Source of the DNA: a virus
DNA length: 37,312 nucleotides
Strand: one strand, 5' to 3'
Virus record (IMG/VR): IMGVR_UViG_3300025699_000023
Span: 1 to 37,312 of that record
In this document: positions 2-36,248 of the stretch, in pieces
Layout of the letters: each line of letters starts with the position of its first letter
Numbering within the stretch: the stretch's first letter is position 1
Made by a program: the position numbers and the translations under genes
Notes under the pieces: model-generated
The model's database searches: none
The model's input: the letters and a program-made list of their open reading frames with translations, nothing else
Told to the model about the DNA's origin: nothing

Positions 2-3000
2 AAAAGTAACCAAGAACTAAAAGAAGTTACAGCTAAATCTAAAAAAGAACTTGACGATATAGGTAATAACCCAGACGGGTTTAACAAAGATAATCCTAAA
101 ATATATACTATATTAAGAGGTTTTATAAAGTCTAAGTCATTAGTATTTAAAACTAAAAAAGGTAATATTGTTAATCTTAATTCATTACCTGGATTTAACG
201 TAGATAATATGGTTAGTGAAACCATAGCTAATATGTTACCTTATATTGCTAAATTTGATCCAAAGCAGAACGATTCTTTGTTTGGTTATTTAATGGCTCA
301 GTTAAACAATAGAATGAAAGGTGCTTTGAATACGGGTAAAGTAACAGATTCTCAGTTTGATGAGGACGTATCAGAAGCTAAAGGAGTTGTAGCTGATACT
401 TCTTATGATAGTGAAAATGTTGTTGTTGCTGAAAGTAAGTACAAAAATCTTATTCAGCAAAAGGTATTAAGTGTAGATGGATTAAAAGCAGTAAAAGAAA
501 AAGTAATATCTACAGTTAGAGTTTTAAAAACAAGGATTGATGCAGTTATAAGCAAGAATGCTTCTGTCACACCTATCATTGCAGAGATTAGAAAAGAAAT
601 TGGAAAACAAGCCGACATTACGTTTAAAAAAGAGATGGGTGGTATTAAGAACAACGAGATACAAGACTACCTTAAAGCCAATAAAAAGGCTATCCTGGAG
701 AACATGACTACTACTTATTTACTTACTTTTATGCCTGAGGGTGTTCAAAAGTCCGTAGGAGGTAAATACATGCTTAATGCAAAAGGAGAAAAGGTTGAAA
801 CCTCTTTTGGAGACAATGTTTTTATTCCTAAATTTGTCAATAGTGATGTGTGGAAATCTTCAGATAACATTGATAGAGAAAAAACATCTACAGGATCAAA
901 AGGTAAAACATCTGGTGCTGACATTCAGCGTAGAGTACCAAATATTGCTCAAGAGATTTCTGATGAATTCTTTATAAGTAAAATTATTGGACCTGATGGA
1001 AAGCCAATTCCTGGTAGAAAGAACTCTATAGCTAAAGCTATGGGAGAAGAGATTGGGTTTGATATGATTAGCCAGGATCTTCAAACAAACGGTCCTATTA
1101 CACAAGCATTGAAAGCAAATCAAGAAGCATTAGGTGTTCTTATTACAGAACAATTTGAAGACATTCTTGATCAACAAATGGAAAGAGGCGACGTTAAATA
1201 TAGTTTAACGAAAAAACAGCTTTTAAACGCAGTTGATATTTTAGACAATAATAAATACGATCAATTCTCTCCTGCATTTAATGAGTGGAAAGAAAATCCT
1301 GAGCACGAAGACGCTGCTAAAATATGGGAGGAAAACTTTGAAAGATTGTTTATTAAAACAGACGGAGCTGTTAGAACTCAATATACTAAAAACGCAAAGG
1401 AAATGATCAATAAATTCCCTTACTTCAAAGAGGGAATAGAAGCATACGGTAAAGGGTTTTTAAATAATGATAGCGCACCGTTAGCTGCTATAGCGGAAAA
1501 GCAATTAGCGGGTTTTTGGGAAGGTATCTCAAAATTAGTAGACCCGGCTATTTCTAAAGTAAAAGGATTAAATTTCTTAGGAGCTACTTTTAGAACACCT
1601 AACCCAAAGGCTAAGGTATTAGCTAACATAAAAAGGAAATCAAAAGTGTCACCTGAAGCTCAAAAAGCTCTTGATTTATTGATGCCAGTTTTAGATAATG
1701 TTACGGTATATTCCGGAAGCTCTTCTGCTATGAATGCCGTTAGAGAGTTTATGACCGCATCTAGTGCTGATGCATCCTTTTTATTAAATGAATTTAACAA
1801 CAGCGAAATAGGTGACAAAACAAGATTAGCAAAAGAAGCTAATATTTTACTTTTTAATTACTTAAATATCTTAGCTAAAGAAGTTGTTGCAAGTCAGCCT
1901 AATAAAGAAGCTGCAAATAAATCTTTCGCAGGTTACTTAAGATGGTTGGAAACTAATAATAATAACGATGCTGGTTTAAAAGGTTTAGCTCACGTAATTG
2001 GACTTGAAATTTTGCCTAACCAAGCACCGTATATTGATTCCGAAGGCAGAGGGTATTACTCTATAAAGTCAAAAATGGTAGTTGTTAAAGGTGAGCCAGA
2101 AGCAGGTCAACTTAAAATAAATAAAAATCATACTAACTTTAATGAAGCTAGAACTTTTATAAAAGAAACAAATAAAACAAAGAAACCAGCAAAAAGAAAA
2201 GAACTGGAAAATCTTTCGCAGTTTAAAAAAGATCAAAATACAGCAAGTTCACTACAAATCATGGGTGAACACCAGCAGTCTATGGGTCAAACCGGAATAG
2301 AATTAGCTGAAGCTGTAGCTGAAAACGTAATAGCACTTGAAAAAGGTACCTCTAAGAAAGTGGCTGACAATATTTTTAACCTTAGATTAAATAAAATAGC
2401 AAACGGATTTGGTATTGTTTTAAATTCTAGGTTTATTTCTGAAAAGCAGGATAAAATATTTGGTAAAACCAGTACTCTTGGTAAGTCTAGAGTAGCTGCT
2501 GTAAAACAAAAAATTAGTGATAATATTTTTGCATTAAACGGAGAACTAATATCTAAGCAAGGTAAGAACGAAGTAAATAATATTGTTAATCAAATAATAA
2601 AAGCTGAAGAGTTAGCCGAAGCAAACAAGGCTAATCAAAAAGCTAAAGATGATTCTTCAAGTTTCCAGAGTTTAAGTTTAACTAAAGACTTTAACAATAT
2701 GATTGAACGAAACAAAGGTGTTGCTGCTGATGTTAACTTCTCTAAAATAGTAGCCAAAAGAATGGGTGCTAATATTGGTAAATACAAGTTTTACTTACCT
2801 TCATCTGCTGAGGATTTTAGATTACTTACTAGCTACACGTTTGCAGGTAAAGGAAAAGATGGAACTCAAGATATGGCTTGGTTCGAGAAAAACTTAATAA
2901 GACCTTATACTGAAGGTATTGCCGCTATTGACGTAGCAAAGCAAACAACTAAGAATGATTTTAAAGCTTTGAATAAAGCTATGCCTGATATTGCTAAAAA

Positions 3001-4927
3001 CATGGGTAAATTAATACCTACCAAAGATTATACTAATGATCAAGCGGTTAGAGTTTACTTATGGGACAAAGCGGGTTATGCAGTTCCTGGTTTAAATAAA
3101 CAAGAAGTTGACACTTTAGTTGCTTATGTAGCAGGTAACCCTGAGTTAGCTATATATGCAAATGCTTTAGTAACAATATCTAAAAGTAATGAATGGTTAA
3201 AACCAAGCGAGCATTGGGATGTAGGTACTATATTATCAGATATAAACAATTTAACTGAAAAAGGTGGTAGAAAAGCATACTTAGCTCAGTGGATTGAAAA
3301 TGTAGATGAAATATTTAGCGACACAAACCTAAACAAGATAGAAGCTTTGTATGGCAAAAGACATAGAGAAGCCTTAGAGGATTCTTTGTATAGAATGAAA
3401 AACGGTACCAATAGACCTTCTGGTTCAAATGGTCAAGTTAATAGATGGAATAACTGGTTAAACAACTCTATTGGAGCTATCATGTTTTTTAATCGTAGAT
3501 CAGCATTGTTACAAACATTGTCAACTAGTAACTTTTTAAACTGGTCTGATAATAATCCAATTAAAGCTGCTGCAGCATTTGCAAATCAAAAGCAATACTG
3601 GGCAGATTTTTCCACATTATTTAATTCCGCTAAATTAAAGCAACGTAGGGGTGGATTAAGAGCAGATGTTAACGAAGCTGAGATTGCAAACGCAGCGGCA
3701 AATTCTAAAAACAAAGCTGTAGCAGCATTAAGCTGGTTACTAAAGAAAGGGTTTACTCCTACGCAAATAGCGGATAGCTTTGCAATTTCTTCCGGTGGTG
3801 CAACGTTTTATAGAAATAGAATTAATACATACTTAAAAGCTAAAGATGCTGAAGGTAATAGTATATACACAGAGAAGCAAGCAGAAGATAAAGCGTTTTT
3901 AGATTTTATTGAAACGTCAGATCAATCACAGCAATCAAGTGATCCGTCATTGGTTTCTATGGAGCAAGCTAGTATATTAGGTAGGTTAGTTTTAGCTTTC
4001 CAAAATACAACTCAGCAGTACTCTAGGATAATGAAAAGAAGCGCTTTAGATATTATAAAAAGGCGTCAAGTACCTGGTACTACATCTATGCTACAAAGTG
4101 ATTTTTCTAACTTTAGTAAGATAGTGTATTACGGAGCAATACAAAACGTTATATTTAACAGTTTATCTGCAGCGTTGTTTGCGCTAATACCTGGGTTTGG
4201 AGAAGAAGAGGATGACGAATTGCTAGATTTAAGTAAAGCTGACAAGTTAAGAAGAATAACTAATGGTAGTGTAGACTCTTTATTAAAAGGTATGGGCGTT
4301 AGGGGTGCTGTTATAGCTCAAATTAAAAATACTATAATGGAATACTTTAAGCAAAAAGATAAAGGCTTTAAAGGCGATCAAGCTTATACTGTATTGCAAG
4401 TAGCTAACCTATCTCCTCCAATTGGATCTAAGCTTAAGAAAATATATAGTGCTTTAACTGGTGAAAAATACGGCAGGAAGCTAATGGAAGAAAGAGGGTT
4501 TGATTTAACCGCTAATGGAAGATTGAATTTAAGCCCTACTTATGCTGTTTTAGGTAGTTTAGCCGCTGGTGCAGCAAACATACCCTTAGATCGTATGTAT
4601 GCAGAGATTCAGAGTGTATCAGAGATGCTGGACGAACGTAATACTATATATCAAAGATTAGCATTGTCTTTAGGGTTTAGGTCTTGGGATGTTAACGCAA
4701 AGAATGAAGAGGATGATTTAATTAAAGCGCAGCTTTCAGATAAAAAGAAAAGTGAAAAGAAAGAAGAGACGAAACTTAATAGAAGAATAGCTACTGATAG
4801 GAAATTATTAAATAGAGAAAAAGTTTATAAGTCTTTAACTCAAGAGCAAAAAGATTATATCCTTAGCTTAGGGAAAAATGCAAGGAAAAAAGCTTTAGAC
4901 AGATTAGCAGAACAATTAGAGGAATAG
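2..4927 (+). CDS. Giant phage late protein, C-terminal 1641 residues (5'-truncated by window edge)
   Basis: The frame is open from base 2 with no stop, so the ATG at 209 is probably internal and the gene begins left of the window. The visible part is 1641 residues, rich in Lys, Asn and Ala, mostly alpha-helical in character and without long repeats. A DPKQNDSLFGYLMAQLNNR segment lies near the visible start. A hydrophobic stretch (about 4135-4200) is followed by an acidic patch (EEEDDELLDL), and the C terminus is Lys/Arg-rich. Very large proteins of this kind in phages are often ejected inner-virion or polyvalent proteins; that role is inferred from size and late-strand position, since no catalytic motif was recognised. 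It is the last rightward gene before a terminator. Confidence 0.85.
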   Translation, partial: KSNQELKEVTAKSKKELDDIGNNPDGFNKDNPKIYTILRGFIKSKSLVFKTKKGNIVNLNSLPGFNVDNMVSETIANMLPYIAKFDPKQNDSLFGYLMAQLNNRMKGALNTGKVTDSQFDEDVSEAKGVVADTSYDSENVVVAESKYKNLIQQKVLSVDGLKAVKEKVISTVRVLKTRIDAVISKNASVTPIIAEIRKEIGKQADITFKKEMGGIKNNEIQDYLKANKKAILENMTTTYLLTFMPEGVQKSVGGKYMLNAKGEKVETSFGDNVFIPKFVNSDVWKSSDNIDREKTSTGSKGKTSGADIQRRVPNIAQEISDEFFISKIIGPDGKPIPGRKNSIAKAMGEEIGFDMISQDLQTNGPITQALKANQEALGVLITEQFEDILDQQMERGDVKYSLTKKQLLNAVDILDNNKYDQFSPAFNEWKENPEHEDAAKIWEENFERLFIKTDGAVRTQYTKNAKEMINKFPYFKEGIEAYGKGFLNNDSAPLAAIAEKQLAGFWEGISKLVDPAISKVKGLNFLGATFRTPNPKAKVLANIKRKSKVSPEAQKALDLLMPVLDNVTVYSGSSSAMNAVREFMTASSADASFLLNEFNNSEIGDKTRLAKEANILLFNYLNILAKEVVASQPNKEAANKSFAGYLRWLETNNNNDAGLKGLAHVIGLEILPNQAPYIDSEGRGYYSIKSKMVVVKGEPEAGQLKINKNHTNFNEARTFIKETNKTKKPAKRKELENLSQFKKDQNTASSLQIMGEHQQSMGQTGIELAEAVAENVIALEKGTSKKVADNIFNLRLNKIANGFGIVLNSRFISEKQDKIFGKTSTLGKSRVAAVKQKISDNIFALNGELISKQGKNEVNNIVNQIIKAEELAEANKANQKAKDDSSSFQSLSLTKDFNNMIERNKGVAADVNFSKIVAKRMGANIGKYKFYLPSSAEDFRLLTSYTFAGKGKDGTQDMAWFEKNLIRPYTEGIAAIDVAKQTTKNDFKALNKAMPDIAKNMGKLIPTKDYTNDQAVRVYLWDKAGYAVPGLNKQEVDTLVAYVAGNPELAIYANALVTISKSNEWLKPSEHWDVGTILSDINNLTEKGGRKAYLAQWIENVDEIFSDTNLNKIEALYGKRHREALEDSLYRMKNGTNRPSGSNGQVNRWNNWLNNSIGAIMFFNRRSALLQTLSTSNFLNWSDNNPIKAAAAFANQKQYWADFSTLFNSAKLKQRRGGLRADVNEAEIANAAANSKNKAVAALSWLLKKGFTPTQIADSFAISSGGATFYRNRINTYLKAKDAEGNSIYTEKQAEDKAFLDFIETSDQSQQSSDPSLVSMEQASILGRLVLAFQNTTQQYSRIMKRSALDIIKRRQVPGTTSMLQSDFSNFSKIVYYGAIQNVIFNSLSAALFALIPGFGEEEDDELLDLSKADKLRRITNGSVDSLLKGMGVRGAVIAQIKNTIMEYFKQKDKGFKGDQAYTVLQVANLSPPIGSKLKKIYSALTGEKYGRKLMEERGFDLTANGRLNLSPTYAVLGSLAAGAANIPLDRMYAEIQSVSEMLDERNTIYQRLALSLGFRSWDVNAKNEEDDLIKAQLSDKKKSEKKEETKLNRRIATDRKLLNREKVYKSLTQEQKDYILSLGKNARKKALDRLAEQLEE

Positions 4928-6760: not shown

Positions 6761-7132
6761 TTAGTTTTTTTGCCATCTTTTGTTATACTTAGGCTTGTGT
6801 TCAAATTCTAATTCTATTTCCTTGATTAATCTTTGTTTTTTAGTAAATGTTTCAATAACTTCATAAGTCCAAAACTCTTTACAGTATTGTTTTTTAAATT
6901 GACCTTTGTGAAAAGCTTTCGATTTGTCATAACCAAAATGTTCTGATAATCTTCTTGGACCATTAACTGTTTCTCCAACATAGATAATCTCACCGGTCTC
7001 ATTTTTAATTATATAAACAATTTCCATAGGTACAGGAAACTCTTTATTAAACAATGCTTCTCTTGCTTTTCTAACTGTAGCTCTTCTAGCTTCATCAGTT
7101 ACATATTCTATCTTCTCGTGTATTCTTGTCAT
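6761..7132 (-). CDS. GIY-YIG family nuclease
   Basis: A 123-residue protein with a GIY-YIG nuclease core: IVYIIK, then IIYVGET, an Arg in GPRRLSEHF, and a late Glu-rich helix ending KPKYN. These endonucleases cut DNA and are often free-standing homing enzymes in phages. The ATG at 7132 is preferred; an in-frame TTG twelve bases upstream would overlap the preceding gene. It sits directly before nrdA and between two copies of the WNNEWKKG repeat, which suits an insertion beside a ribonucleotide reductase gene, a common target of phage homing endonucleases. No separate DNA-binding domain is evident. Homing activity is inferred. Confidence 0.85.
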   Translation of the reverse strand: MTRIHEKIEYVTDEARRATVRKAREALFNKEFPVPMEIVYIIKNETGEIIYVGETVNGPRRLSEHFGYDKSKAFHKGQFKKQYCKEFWTYEVIETFTKKQRLIKEIELEFEHKPKYNKRWQKN

Positions 7133-7137
7133 AATTA

Positions 7138-7575
7138 TTACCAATTGTTTGTTTCAATATACTTATAGAGCAATTTGTTTAAATCCCATTCTTCAATACC
7201 CCACCTTTTTTTCTTACATAAAAGCTCTAGTGCTTCTGTTTTTTCACTAAAAACACCTATTATTTCAAAAGCAGGGCACCCGTGTCCTCCACCTCCGTTA
7301 TCCACTAAGTATATTTTCTTACCAATTTTGTAGTCTCCAAACCGAACCTTGCCTTCAAGGCCTTGGCAAGCACCACACCATTCACATGTGCTTTGATTGT
7401 CTTTAACTCTAATACATTTGTTATTAAAGTTGCAATTATCAGTACAGAAACTTTTAAAATTTAGATAATATAAAAACTTCTCCTTCCAGGAACCATTAAC
7501 TAAGAAACCGTTTCTTATTGATTGTCTAATTCTTCTTATAATTTCTCCTTTTTTCCATTCATTATTCCAACTCAT
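7138..7575 (-). CDS. Cys-rich 145-residue protein with an NrdA-like N-terminus
   Basis: I do not recognise the family. The protein begins MSWNNEWKKG, nearly identical to the start of NrdA, and then diverges. Six cysteines lie in the middle (FCTDNCNFNNKC and STCEWCGACQG), suggesting a zinc or redox site, followed by a Gly-rich GGGGHGCPAFE stretch. The start overlaps the end of the preceding 56-residue ORF, and the stop lies five bases before the ATG of the GIY-YIG gene, so the genes are probably co-translated. The borrowed N terminus points to duplication of the 5' end of nrdA. Confidence 0.75.
   Translation of the reverse strand: MSWNNEWKKGEIIRRIRQSIRNGFLVNGSWKEKFLYYLNFKSFCTDNCNFNNKCIRVKDNQSTCEWCGACQGLEGKVRFGDYKIGKKIYLVDNGGGGHGCPAFEIIGVFSEKTEALELLCKKKRWGIEEWDLNKLLYKYIETNNW
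7545..7569 (-). repeat. WNNEWKKG repeat, copy 2
   Basis: Second copy of the 25-bp unit, at the 5' end of the 145-residue gene; it differs from the nrdA copy at a single position. Confidence 0.85.
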
Positions 7576-30434: not shown

Positions 30435-31988
30435 ATGTCAAACCAAATTGTAAAAAATCTCACCTTCGGTGAGAAGGCAAAGACCAATGTATTTAAAGGT
30501 ATCGAAAAGCTTACAAAAGCTGTTAGTTCTACCTTAGGAGCCAGTGGAAAATGCGTATTACTAGAAAACGAATTAGGTAAACCTGTTATTACCAAAGATG
30601 GTGTAACGGTTGCAAATTCAATAACACTTAGAGATCCTATTGAAAATATGGGTGCAACGCTTCTAAAGGAAGCAGCTAGGCAAACTGTTAAAGAAGCTGG
30701 AGATGGAACCACAACAGCTACAGTCTTAGCTCACTCAATATTATTAGAAGCATACGCTGCTAAAAACAGTGGATCAAGGGAAATGAAGGAAGGTGTCGAA
30801 TCGGCTACTAAAAAAGTAATTGAGTATCTAGAAAAGCTAGCGGTACCTGTTGAAGGAGATATGGTAAACCATGTTGCAACAATTTCTTCTAACAACGATA
30901 AAGAGCTTGGTAATGTTATTGCTGAGGCTTTTAAACAAGTGGGTAAGAATGGAGTTGTTACTATGGAGGTTTCAAATGATAGCGAAACAAGTTACGAAGT
31001 AATAAATGGAGCTGCAATAGATAAACCTTTAAAGAACTTCCACTTTATCACAGACGAAAGTAAAAAAGAAGCTGTACTTGAAAATCCATTAGTATTACTA
31101 GTAGAAAACAAAATAGAAAACATACGTAAGATACAAAGTGTTTTAGAGTATGTTATAAAAAACAATGAGCCTTTATTAATTATTGGCGAAGCAGATGAGC
31201 AAGTAGTATCCGCTTTAGCTATGAATAAAAAGAAAGGTAATATCAAAGTCAATATTATTGACACTCCTGACTTTGGAATATACAGAAAAGAAAAGCTTCA
31301 GGATATAGCTCTCTTAACAGGTGCTACGGTCGTGAATGAAGACCTTGGTGATGACTTAGATATGATAGAGGTAGAAATGCTAGGAAAGTGTTTAAAGTCC
31401 ATTACAAACGACCAGGAGACCATTATACAAGTAGGAGATACATCTATTAAAGTTCAAGAAGTTATCGATTCGATACAAGATGACATTAAAAAAGAAACTT
31501 TACCAGGTAAGCTTAATAGATTAGAAAAAAGATTAGGTTTATTATCTTGTAAAGTAGCTGTTATAAAAGTAGGTGCAAGCTCAGAGGTTGAGCTTAAAGA
31601 AAAGCAAGATAGAGTTGAAGATGCGATGTGTGCTACAAAAGCTGCTATTAAAGAAGGTATTGTACCAGGTGGTGGTATTGCTTTATTAAATGCTTCTACT
31701 TATGTTAAACCAAGCAACGATAATGAAAAAGTTTTACTAGAAGCTATTAAAGCGCCTTATTTAACTATACTAAAAAACGCTGGTTTAGAAGAAGTATATC
31801 CGAAAGGAAAAGGCAAAGGAATTAATGTAGTTACCGGTAAAGACGTTAATATGATTAAGTCTGGTATTATTGATCCTTTATTAGTTACTAAAAGCGCATT
31901 AAAGAACGCAGCATCAGTAGCTACAACTATATTGTCAACAGATTGTGTAATCAACAACTTAAGAGTAGAAGATGAAAGCAATAGGTAG
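30435..31988 (+). CDS. groEL: Phage-encoded GroEL-type chaperonin
   Basis: A 517-residue chaperonin of near-normal length (host GroEL is about 545). The nucleotide site is intact: ITKDGVTVA (Asp55), EAGDGTTTATVLA (Asp90) and a C-terminal VEDAMCATKAAIKEGIVPGGG containing the catalytic Asp equivalent to E. coli Asp398. The apical domain is diverged and the Gly-Gly-Met tail of host GroEL is missing, replaced by a charged end (RVEDESNR). It is co-transcribed with groES, overlapping by 17 bases, in the reverse of the usual bacterial order. It probably folds capsid or other phage proteins. Confidence 0.95.
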   Translation: MSNQIVKNLTFGEKAKTNVFKGIEKLTKAVSSTLGASGKCVLLENELGKPVITKDGVTVANSITLRDPIENMGATLLKEAARQTVKEAGDGTTTATVLAHSILLEAYAAKNSGSREMKEGVESATKKVIEYLEKLAVPVEGDMVNHVATISSNNDKELGNVIAEAFKQVGKNGVVTMEVSNDSETSYEVINGAAIDKPLKNFHFITDESKKEAVLENPLVLLVENKIENIRKIQSVLEYVIKNNEPLLIIGEADEQVVSALAMNKKKGNIKVNIIDTPDFGIYRKEKLQDIALLTGATVVNEDLGDDLDMIEVEMLGKCLKSITNDQETIIQVGDTSIKVQEVIDSIQDDIKKETLPGKLNRLEKRLGLLSCKVAVIKVGASSEVELKEKQDRVEDAMCATKAAIKEGIVPGGGIALLNASTYVKPSNDNEKVLLEAIKAPYLTILKNAGLEEVYPKGKGKGINVVTGKDVNMIKSGIIDPLLVTKSALKNAASVATTILSTDCVINNLRVEDESNR

Positions 31989-32232
31989 AAACTTGATAAT
32001 AAAGATCATTAAAGAAGCAACTACTAAAACAAAAGGTGGTTTAATACTTAATGAAAAAAGTAGAGAAGATATAAGATATCGTAAAGCTACTATTGTATCC
32101 GTTGGAACAGATGTTGAAGGTGTAACGAAAGACGATACAATCTATTTTGACAGAAACGCTGGACACGGAATAGAAATAGACAACGAGAAACTACACGTTA
32201 TAAAGAATCAAGATGTAGTAGTCGTATTATGA
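31972..32232 (+). CDS. groES: Phage-encoded GroES-type co-chaperonin
   Basis: An 86-residue GroES-like lid: KAIGRNLIIKIIKEATTKTK, a mobile-loop hydrophobic motif GGLIL (about residue 22), VGTDVEG, and DDTIYFDRNAG near the roof strand. The short length and unusual mobile loop suggest adaptation to the phage GroEL. Starts inside the end of groEL, so translation is coupled. Confidence 0.9.
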   Translation: MKAIGRNLIIKIIKEATTKTKGGLILNEKSREDIRYRKATIVSVGTDVEGVTKDDTIYFDRNAGHGIEIDNEKLHVIKNQDVVVVL

Positions 32233-32677: not shown

Positions 32678-34456
32678 ATGGCGCCTAAGAAAAAGAAAAA
32701 GAATAAATTAGGATACGAGCAAGATCCAGGGCGTGGTGAATTGAACAAAACGGGTAGAGATATACCTTCTAATTTATTGCAAGTTACAGGAGACACTCCT
32801 GAATACTATAAAGCTGCGGAAGAGGGTACTTTTGCTAATATTCCAAATGTTTTAGACGAAGTAGTTATTGTTGCTGGTAATGATTATAATAAACAGCCTA
32901 ACTTTAATAGCTTAACTAAATCAGAAAGAAAACTTTCTAAAGGAAAAGGAGTTATTGGTAGAGCTTTAAGGCAAAAAGCTAGAGGAGAGAAACCTTCACA
33001 AATGACAACCGCCTCGTTTTTAGGCGGTATTGCAGAAGGTGTTGGAAGCTTAATTCAAGCACCTCAGTCATTAGCAGTTGAGGGAATTGAAAAAATGAGA
33101 GGCAACCCTTCTTCTTTTACAAATGCAGTAACACCCGGCAAACAAAGAACGCCTTCTCAAACAATGGGTTTAGAGGATAAACCAGGGTGGGATGTAGGTG
33201 GATCTTTGAATACAGCTATGGATCTACTAGGAGACCCTTCAAATTTATTTGGAATAGGTGCAGCAAGTAAGATTATGAAAGGTGCAAAAAATGTACCTAA
33301 AGTATTAAAAAACGCGCCTAAACTTGGCGATGATGTATCTAGCTCTATTAAAAACTTTTTTAGTCCTGGGCAAAATCTAGAAGGTGTTAGTGATATAGGA
33401 GCAAGGCTTTCTACGCCAAATCCTAAGAACGCTGACAAGATGGGGTTTTTAAGTAATATAACAGGAAAAAACAAGAAAGCTGTTGCAGAAATAGAACCGT
33501 TAGTTAGAGAGCTAGCTAAAGAAGGAAAAAACTATAAGGAAGTTATAAGTGAAACTGTAACTAATATGAGTAGCCCTCAAGGCCAACAAAGACTAAAGGA
33601 TGAAGCTATTGCATATGCTAAACTTACGGGTAAAAAAATGGATGCAAAATCTATTAAAGAAGATGTTAAACAAACTATTTCAACCATAAAAAACTCGGGT
33701 AGTGCTAATATTGATGCAAGTAAAGCTATAAGGAAAGATGGCTCGTTGAATAGGAGTAAAGCTATGCAAGCTATATATGGTACAGAACAAACAGCTCGTG
33801 GCAGCAGCGTAAAGCTGAACAAAGCTGGGGGGAGTTTAATAAATAGTGGACAAGCTCAGGAGATGTCTTCTCATATAGGGGCAAACATATCAGGCAAAGC
33901 GCCTATTAAGCATGAGATAGGTCATATGATTAAAGGGAACAAGTATAACGCAACTGGAAAAGGAAGCCCTATAGATATAGAGTTAAGAGCTCTTAAGCAG
34001 ATTCCAGATGAATCATTAACTGCAACTCAAAAAGCAAGCAAAGGTTATTTTAATAAAGTAACACCATATCAAAAGTCAGAGAAACTTTATTCGGGTGGAC
34101 GCTCAATGCGTCGCGCAGCGTTAGACCCGGAGCCGTCTTCATTCGCGCAAGAGCTAAGACAGCAAATGTTAACCGACAAGTTTATATCAAATAAAAAAGG
34201 TACTTGGTCTGACATAACACAAAATGACTTAACTAAAGCTAGCGAGTTTTACAAGAAAAATCCTAGAGGAAGTATTACAACACGTAAAGATGGTTCTAAA
34301 GGAGGATTTATAAGTTCGACTAGAATGTTTGATTTTGTTGATAAATCTTCTTTTTCTGATTTAGCAAAAAGTATGAATAAGCTAACGGGGGCGGTTGCGC
34401 CAGTCGGAATAGGTGGAGCTAGTCTTAGCAGTATGTTTGGAAAAAAGAAAAAATAG
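32678..34456 (+). CDS. Large virion-type protein with an HExxH motif
   Basis: A 592-residue protein with a Lys-rich N terminus (MAPKKKKKNKLGYEQD) and low-complexity Gly/Ser/Asn stretches, typical of internal virion proteins. Residues 412-416 read HEIGH within PIKHEIGHMIKGN, matching the zinc-metallopeptidase consensus HExxH, with hydrophobic flanks as expected for a zincin helix. A possible third ligand was not located with certainty. The gene lies between regulatory and lysis genes. A peptidase role is inferred from the motif only. Confidence 0.75.
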   Translation: MAPKKKKKNKLGYEQDPGRGELNKTGRDIPSNLLQVTGDTPEYYKAAEEGTFANIPNVLDEVVIVAGNDYNKQPNFNSLTKSERKLSKGKGVIGRALRQKARGEKPSQMTTASFLGGIAEGVGSLIQAPQSLAVEGIEKMRGNPSSFTNAVTPGKQRTPSQTMGLEDKPGWDVGGSLNTAMDLLGDPSNLFGIGAASKIMKGAKNVPKVLKNAPKLGDDVSSSIKNFFSPGQNLEGVSDIGARLSTPNPKNADKMGFLSNITGKNKKAVAEIEPLVRELAKEGKNYKEVISETVTNMSSPQGQQRLKDEAIAYAKLTGKKMDAKSIKEDVKQTISTIKNSGSANIDASKAIRKDGSLNRSKAMQAIYGTEQTARGSSVKLNKAGGSLINSGQAQEMSSHIGANISGKAPIKHEIGHMIKGNKYNATGKGSPIDIELRALKQIPDESLTATQKASKGYFNKVTPYQKSEKLYSGGRSMRRAALDPEPSSFAQELRQQMLTDKFISNKKGTWSDITQNDLTKASEFYKKNPRGSITTRKDGSKGGFISSTRMFDFVDKSSFSDLAKSMNKLTGAVAPVGIGGASLSSMFGKKKK

Positions 34457-34890: not shown

Positions 34891-35310
34891 ATGAGGGAGA
34901 TAAACAAAGTAATAGTACATTGCACTGCTACTCCTGAAAACAGAGTTGTTACCGTAGAAGACGTACGTCAATGGCACAAAGCTAGAGGATGGAGTGATAT
35001 TGGTTATCATATAATGATTTACTTAGATGGAACTGTTCACGAAGGAAGACCAATAGAAAGGAGTGGTGCTCATTGTAAAGGTCAGAACAAAAACTCTATA
35101 GGTATCGCTTATGTCGGAGGAGTTGATAAAGATATGAACCCTAAAGATACGCGTACGGAATGTCAAAAAGAAGCTTTGTGTAATATACTAGAACATTATA
35201 AAACTAAATATCCAAAGGTAGAAATATTTGGTCATAGAGATTTTTCTTCGAAAGCATGCCCTAGTTTTGATGCTACCAAAGAATACGAAAATATAACTAA
35301 TATGTGGTAA
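34891..35310 (+). CDS. N-acetylmuramoyl-L-alanine amidase, T7 lysozyme-like
   Basis: A 139-residue type-2 amidase. Zinc ligands His10 (VIVHCTAT), His115 (GHRDFSS) and Cys123 (KACPSFD), and active-site Tyr39 (DIGYHIMI) and Lys121, match T7 lysozyme (His17, His122, Cys130, Tyr46, Lys128). It cleaves the peptide stems of peptidoglycan during lysis. No signal peptide is evident, so it depends on the nearby holin. Confidence 0.93.
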   Translation: MREINKVIVHCTATPENRVVTVEDVRQWHKARGWSDIGYHIMIYLDGTVHEGRPIERSGAHCKGQNKNSIGIAYVGGVDKDMNPKDTRTECQKEALCNILEHYKTKYPKVEIFGHRDFSSKACPSFDATKEYENITNMW

Positions 35311-35849: not shown

Positions 35850-36248
35850 ATGAGTTGGTTAAGTAAATTATTAGGTAGTGGTACAAAAGGTTTAGGTGAT
35901 CTAGCTAAAGATATTAGAGAGGCTCTTAAAGGTAAAGAACTAGATCCTAATAAGCAGCTTGACATTGCGGCTAAGTTAGCTGAAGTACAAACTAAAATTA
36001 ATGTAGCAGAAGCTACTCACAGATCTGTATTTGTTGCAGGCTGGAGACCTTTTGTAGGGTGGGTTTGTGGATTTGGATTATTATACGCAGTATTATTAGA
36101 ACCTTTACTTAGGTTCATATTTACAGTAAACGGGTGGGAGTCAACTTTCCCTATTATAGATACAACTATTACACTGCAAGTGCTATTCGGAATGTTAGGA
36201 TTAGCAGGTTTTAGATCATACGAAAAGAAAAACAATTTAACAAAATAA
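35850..36248 (+). CDS. Holin, GTA/3TM type
   Basis: A 132-residue holin with a charged N-terminal half and the VFVAGWRPFVGWVCGFGLL signature, followed by two further hydrophobic segments (LLEPLLRFIF, LQVLFGMLGLAGFRSY). It would open the inner membrane for the amidase gene upstream. Confidence 0.88.
   Translation: MSWLSKLLGSGTKGLGDLAKDIREALKGKELDPNKQLDIAAKLAEVQTKINVAEATHRSVFVAGWRPFVGWVCGFGLLYAVLLEPLLRFIFTVNGWESTFPIIDTTITLQVLFGMLGLAGFRSYEKKNNLTK

Follow-up and report, generated by a model that had tools for sequence, protein, structure and literature searches.

A putative virion-carried, gluzincin-like metallopeptidase of a phage, related to proteins whose genes follow the muzzle gene in crAss-like contigs

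Introduction

N4 vRNAP, a large virion protein that is ejected, carries an HExxH motif in its C1 domain, according to the accessible part of the report on it (PMC12633501), and the available portion of a study of Thermus phage P23-45 assigns a metallopeptidase domain to the tape measure protein of that phage and likewise to "many TMPs" (PMC10770324). Both are likened to the protein considered here by description alone, and both differ from it: the HExxH domain of N4 vRNAP is fused to an RNA polymerase, and the P23-45 tape measure, although a virion protein as we propose ours to be, has 5,002 residues. In phage PhicrAss001 the genes gp45, gp46 and gp47 lie right after the muzzle gene, gp44; in the accessible text of that source, the products of the genes that follow the muzzle gene are described as virion cargo, presumably ejected (PMC10172136). 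One of them, the RNA-polymerase-associated cargo protein gp47 (L033, 16120-23145), has the sequence HEAFH at residue 2157, whereas gp45 and gp46 are without HExxH.

Cellulophaga phage phi4:1 gp041 is annotated as a virion protein from MS/MS, has 739 residues and is placed in PHROG 24249 by the relatives that match that family and by equal profile length. Its gene directly follows that of a muzzle homologue, gp042, and it contains two HExxH motifs and a Phage_lysozyme2 (tail lysozyme) domain (5.1e-32). A metzincin derived from a Listeria phage is also said to have been described. To our knowledge, it is largely open how phages of Bacteroidota, the crAss-like ones included, get across the outer membrane and wall.

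Here we describe P0001, a protein with one HExxH motif, encoded in a window (the whole stretch of DNA analysed) that corresponds to a whole IMG/VR virus record (37,312 bases).

Results

The P0001 gene occupies positions 32678-34456 of the plus strand and encodes 592 aa from an ATG start. Upstream on the same strand are genes for GroEL and GroES (30435-32232; PF00118, 7.2e-57; PF00166, 4.2e-12), which share a 17-base overlap; downstream, again on the plus strand, are an Amidase_2 endolysin (34891-35310; PF01510, 2.8e-15; phrog_822, 6e-60) and a holin (35850-36248; phrog_3427, 1.9e-25). The gene is bounded by GroES and a 148-aa ORF on one side and by the amidase on the other, beside the lysis module. 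At the left end of the window a plus-strand ORF of 1,572 residues (209-4927), possibly a large ejection-type protein, gave no tblastn match at E 0.01 in phage records and no good match in Pfam or PHROG, and a homing-endonuclease-like ORF (6761-7144; phrog_7168, 1.1e-5) adjoins that of the ribonucleotide reductase large subunit.

Scans of viral contigs returned copies of the protein at 98-100% identity (L001-L003), a relative at 76% identity (L004) and a relative of 1,237 residues (P0002, on L005). The record is probably a partial phage genome. The L004 terminase is closest to that of a 60.8 kb podovirus (64%) and then to those of Flavobacterium phages (44.5%), with 68 of the 89 records it matched being Flavobacterium phages and 15 of 89 Cellulophaga phages; on the basis of these matches the window's phage is most likely a podovirus of Bacteroidota. 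GroEL and GroES also occur in the two nearest TerL-relative phages examined, and in the 32 kb counterpart stretches of those two phages HExxH is absent from ORFs of at least 150 aa.

The HExxH motif of P0001, HEIGH, lies at residues 412-416 (33911-33925, plus strand), exactly where the original prediction had placed it, and no other HExxH occurs in any of the window's six frames. P0001 has three His residues in all, and any HExxH arose in 14 of 20,000 shuffles of its sequence. The flanks had been called hydrophobic; the mean Kyte-Doolittle values, which are -0.15 over residues 402-411 and -0.9 over residues 417-426, contradict this. P0001 has no usable match in Pfam, PHROGs or NCBIfam. In Pfam it matches neither SprT-like nor Peptidase_M91 above the curated cut-off, and a few members of its family match these weakly, below cut-off. 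Tblastn with P0001 or P0002 found nothing in 50,697 phage records, and a PDB sequence search found nothing meaningful for P0001 or for alignment A2.

P0001 and P0002 are colinear over P0001 residues 40-579 (BLASTP E 3e-46, 28% identity, in a two-sequence comparison with composition correction off). An N-terminal conserved block, residues 40-201 (32795-33280, plus strand), is common to P0001 and the post-muzzle proteins of crAss-like contigs. By default BLASTP this block is 50.6% identical to that of P0002 (E 2e-45), and over residues 40-198 it is 39% identical to that of P0007, on L010 (E 4e-29). Two genes upstream of the P0002 gene is an ORF that matches the Crassvirus muzzle family (PF25731, 5.8e-36), and the genes for P0006 (on L008) and P0007 lie downstream of ORFs homologous to the L005 muzzle. 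P0001 itself bears the block, with the pattern TPEYxxAxEEGxFAxxPNxLDEVV, and a C-terminal HExxH domain, as the crAss-like post-muzzle proteins do. No muzzle gene was found near its gene: there was none among the 10 window proteins scanned in Pfam, and no ORF of at least 150 aa in L001-L004 matched the L005 muzzle. A DNA pattern for the block returned 20 stretches, including copies of the window's relatives, L005 and L010; in 12 of them one to three HExxH follow in frame (in one case there is also one before the block), and in the other eight the frame runs off the end of the stretch.

Loss of the His and Glu residues in close relatives had been named as an outcome that would count against a metallopeptidase; they are kept in both L004 and L005. 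Between P0001 and its L004 counterpart, the C-terminal domain has a dN/dS of 0.16 (dN 0.16, dS 0.99, 230 codons) and is under purifying selection. Three HExxH motifs occur within a single ORF at L008:5805-10397, L052:4196-8761 and L081:665-5365.

The predicted zincin (gluzincin-like) domain spans approximately residues 340-582 (33695-34423, plus strand), as judged from alignments A8 and A9 and from pairwise scores. Thirty distinct HExxH segments were extracted, and 23, those of the window and L004 included, were aligned as A8. Seven were omitted because the ligand helix was absent or odd (L052:4538, L081:2909, L092:2423, L096:2639, L096:3617, L084:3470 and L092:1575), and P0004 was omitted for its unread bases. 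Because the helix was itself used to pick rows, its presence in all 23 is not an independent rate. Six columns of A8 are invariant (G, H, E, H, E and R), the last five corresponding to H412, E413, H416, E485 and R494 of P0001. H412 and H416 are predicted zinc ligands and E413 the predicted general base; since E485 falls on the invariant Glu column, it is the predicted third zinc ligand, at the start of a later helix (residues 485-502, 34130-34183, plus strand) that also contains R494. The search for a third ligand that the original prediction had proposed thus yields a candidate by name from the 23-domain alignment.

The placement of E485 was sensitive to alignment depth. In smaller, early alignments it stood opposite another Glu, with a 3-residue gap; deeper ones, A8 and A9 among them, and an ungapped score shift it to the ligand column. 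Against P0002 the ligand helix gives an ungapped 18-residue match scoring 29, the next best place in the protein scoring 10, and 6 of 5,000 shuffles of P0001 residues 417-592 reached the former score.

Pairwise comparison by Smith-Waterman, with HEIGH held fixed in the shuffles, argues for similarity beyond the motif. For P0001 residues 340-592 against the six nearest members, the shuffles scoring at least as high as the real sequence numbered 0, 1, 10, 35, 0 and 4 of 1,000, and the L004 protein in the same six-member test gave 0, 0, 5, 98, 0 and 1 of 1,000; for P0001 residues 417-592 alone the counts were 1, 2, 1, 18, 0 and 0 of 1,000. The weakest member for both proteins was L066 (35 of 1,000 for P0001, 98 of 1,000 for the L004 protein). 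A profile HMM built from the 21 other rows of A8 misses P0001, which scores 2.5 bits, a value equalled or exceeded by 443 of 2,000 P0001 shuffles that left HEIGH where it was; for the L004 relative the score is 7.8 bits. Alignment of two small alignments by hhalign gave a probability of 59% and an E of 9.1e-5. When A8 was compared with the PDB, a WLM/Wss1-type protease appeared at E 0.0075, level with proteasome subunits.

AlphaFold gave a pLDDT of 34 for the P0001 domain from a 7-row alignment, and a pLDDT of 77 with a pTM of 0.76 for the L005 domain from 23 rows. In the L005 model three short strands precede the HExxH helix (60-79), and Glu143 lies near the start of a helix at 141-155. Foldseek found no significant match to this model in the PDB (best E 1.5). 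When 335 candidates were aligned to it with VIA-align, rows 1-17 of the best 25 went to zinc peptidases or to proteins with the zincin fold and represented ten distinct proteins, with lethal factor taking six rows and with ArdC and PprI, which we take to have the zincin fold, among them. The best was the C-terminal domain of lethal factor (Z 4.9, rmsd 4.9, 123 residues), and the zincin structures, which also included Acel_2062 (3e11), selecase and Wss1, ranged from Z 4.9 down to 2.3. By the tool's own guidance, Z values up to 4.9 are at a level that can reflect a common arrangement; as they are weak alone, we argue zincin likeness from the uniformity of the rows. Among predicted viral structures the L005 model had no match at E 0.001. 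The top match, an uncharacterised protein, came from phage cr125_1 (E 7.6e-3, probability 0.99), gut crAss-like proteins were among the first seven, and the seventh was a 739-residue structural protein of phi4:1, the length of gp041 (E 0.68). The zinc-metallopeptidase core of the original prediction is supported by way of homologues, through E485 in A8 and the zincin-like model of the relative; the model of P0001's own domain is of low confidence (pLDDT 34). We regard the zincin reading of the C-terminal domain as probable.

Within the N-terminal block, residues 59-64 read LDEVVI (32852-32869, plus strand), a sequence resembling a TonB box that recurs in the relatives. In 15 of 20 distinct zincin proteins the pattern [LIVM][DE]E[VI][VI][VIMT] precedes the zincin, where shuffles lead one to expect 0.04. 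These 20 come from two domain searches, are related to one another and omit L069-L071, and eight are on contigs also returned by the motif scan, some of which seeded the domain searches; among the 12 proteins from contigs that the motif scan did not return, seven have the motif (about 0.03 expected). The forms seen are LDEVV[IVM] or LDEIV/LEEVV, in the window and in L005, L008, L010, L040, L045, L048, L052, L074, L077, L080, L081, L084, L089 and L092; five of the 20 are without the motif upstream, and the sequence around it differs between groups.

Discussion

The reading of P0001 that we favor, at a probability of roughly 0.5, is that of a virion-carried, gluzincin-type metallopeptidase with a putative envelope-cutting activity during entry. 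P0001 would be a particle-associated protein consisting of an N-terminal linker block and a C-terminal gluzincin-type zincin domain, with H412, H416 and E485 as the putative zinc ligands and E413 as the residue that would activate the water. Carried in or on the virion and delivered at the start of infection, it would cut a peptide bond in the envelope, either in the peptidoglycan stems or in a periplasmic or membrane protein, to allow passage of the DNA. We infer the zinc binding, catalysis, substrate and virion location of P0001; putative virion carriage and envelope cutting are plausible. Several observations weigh against this reading: P0001 is missed by the broad HMM and its own model is of low confidence, the structural matches of the relative's model are weak, the gene adjoins the lysis module instead of a muzzle gene, and the counterpart stretches in the two nearest phages examined lack HExxH in ORFs of at least 150 aa. 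The virion location in particular is suggested by a chain of homologues that leads to phi4:1 gp041. That protein has no direct BLAST match to P0001 and no LDEVV motif, and is homologous to the relative P0006 (E 1e-13). Five relatives (P0006 and those on L045, L074, L080 and L084) match its family, PHROG 24249, annotated "tail protein". P0001 has no BLAST match to PhicrAss001 gp45, gp46 or gp47 either, and none of the three has the LDEVV motif.

An envelope-cutting role in entry is favored because some of the relatives have cell-wall enzyme domains. Of the seven long relatives scanned, that on L068 matches both tail lysozyme (2.4e-20) and an L-alanyl-D-glutamate peptidase; the other six have no cell-wall domain in Pfam, and P0002 and P0006 show an NlpC/P60 match below cut-off. 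At L068:2918-6991 the HExxH domain, the L-Ala-D-Glu peptidase match and the tail lysozyme are found in a single ORF.

Such cell-wall domains bear directly on two other functions that a genuine zincin might have. One is action inside the host after ejection, with a host defence, transcription or regulatory protein as the target, and several facts would suit it: the ejected N4 vRNAP has an HExxH domain, in the accessible part of its source (PMC12633501), the RNA-polymerase-associated cargo protein gp47 of PhicrAss001 has HEAFH at 2157, its cargo role being taken from the available text (PMC10172136), and the weak Pfam matches of a few members, below cut-off, are to the M91 effector and SprT-like families. 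Several of the like proteins, however, hold peptidoglycan-cutting domains, which point to the envelope, and we find an intracellular target rather doubtful. The other is maturation, in which the enzyme would process virion proteins during assembly. The single point in its favor is that P0001, as a predicted protease, is encoded close to the genes for lysis and terminase; in several relatives one protein has two or three of these domains, in some cases adjacent to cell-wall domains, and this role strikes us as highly improbable.

It may also be asked whether there is an enzyme here at all. The fold could be that of a zincin whose peptidase activity was lost or never present, leaving a binding or structural part; the sequence of P0001 is very divergent from its family, with insertions, and the pLDDT of 34 from seven rows could be read in the same way. 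Against this, P0001 and the 76% relative both retain the predicted ligands and the catalytic Glu, under a dN/dS of 0.16, and we think an inactive domain unlikely. That the HExxH is a chance occurrence in an unrelated helical virion protein is very unlikely in our estimation: the broad HMM was negative and Pfam, PHROG and NCBIfam offered no usable match, yet a colinear homologue has its HExxH at the corresponding position, and the pairwise similarity extends beyond the motif.

The original prediction held that a virion protease acting on the wall or in capsid maturation would be unusual in this setting. This does not stand, since the counterparts of P0001 in crAss-like contigs repeatedly carry HExxH domains, and N4 vRNAP (PMC12633501) and the P23-45 tape measure (PMC10770324) have an HExxH domain and a metallopeptidase domain, respectively, going by the accessible portions of both reports. 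Because virion metallopeptidase domains are already known, we regard the P0001 gene as a divergent form of these. Our literature search found no earlier description of the group of post-muzzle zincin-like proteins in crAss-like contigs, and no paper on zincins of crAss-like phages. The group, with one to three zincin-like domains in each protein, supplies candidate entry enzymes that can be tested and whose likely catalytic residues can be named, and the YLxxPxExxARxxELR helix could help to annotate large proteins that such phages encode and that are now labelled "hypothetical" or "tail".

Group B colicins are pulled through the outer membrane by the ExbBD-TonB motor. Virion proteins of the kind described here might conceivably do something similar: by mimicking the TonB box of Bacteroidota (LDEVVI/LDEVVVTA), an N-terminal segment exposed after docking would bind periplasmic TonB of the host, whose ExbBD-TonB motor would then draw the protein with its zincin across the outer membrane. 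We offer this as a speculation, and a quite unlikely one. The tested TonB box of Bacteroides thetaiotaomicron Bt1763, a SusC-type receptor, is VDEVVV, according to the accessible part of that study (PMC7782687). It equals LDEVVI at four of six residues, with the other two conservative, and both lie in an N-terminal region; P0001, unlike the SusC-type receptors, is a phage protein and not a receptor. Solved SusC homologues show LDEVVVVGYG and VDEVVVTGY, the NCBIfam SusC signature TIGR04057 has no match in the window, and our literature search turned up nothing related, by title, on a crAss TonB box or phage DEVVV. If the idea is true, the same motif in unrelated phage proteins would point to a general phage strategy in Bacteroidota, and should LDEVV recruit TonB, the entry of the phage would be linked to the nutrient-uptake motor of the host.

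A scan of viral contigs for LDEVVVTA returned 54 stretches (L097-L150), with an open frame in 51, and 38 of these 51 had a GC content below 0.40. The open frames belong to many different proteins and contexts, and a few of the proteins look like host-type receptors. LDEVVVTA is near the C-terminus in L102, L110, L143 and L146, and in L136 it occurs in a protein with PG_binding_1.
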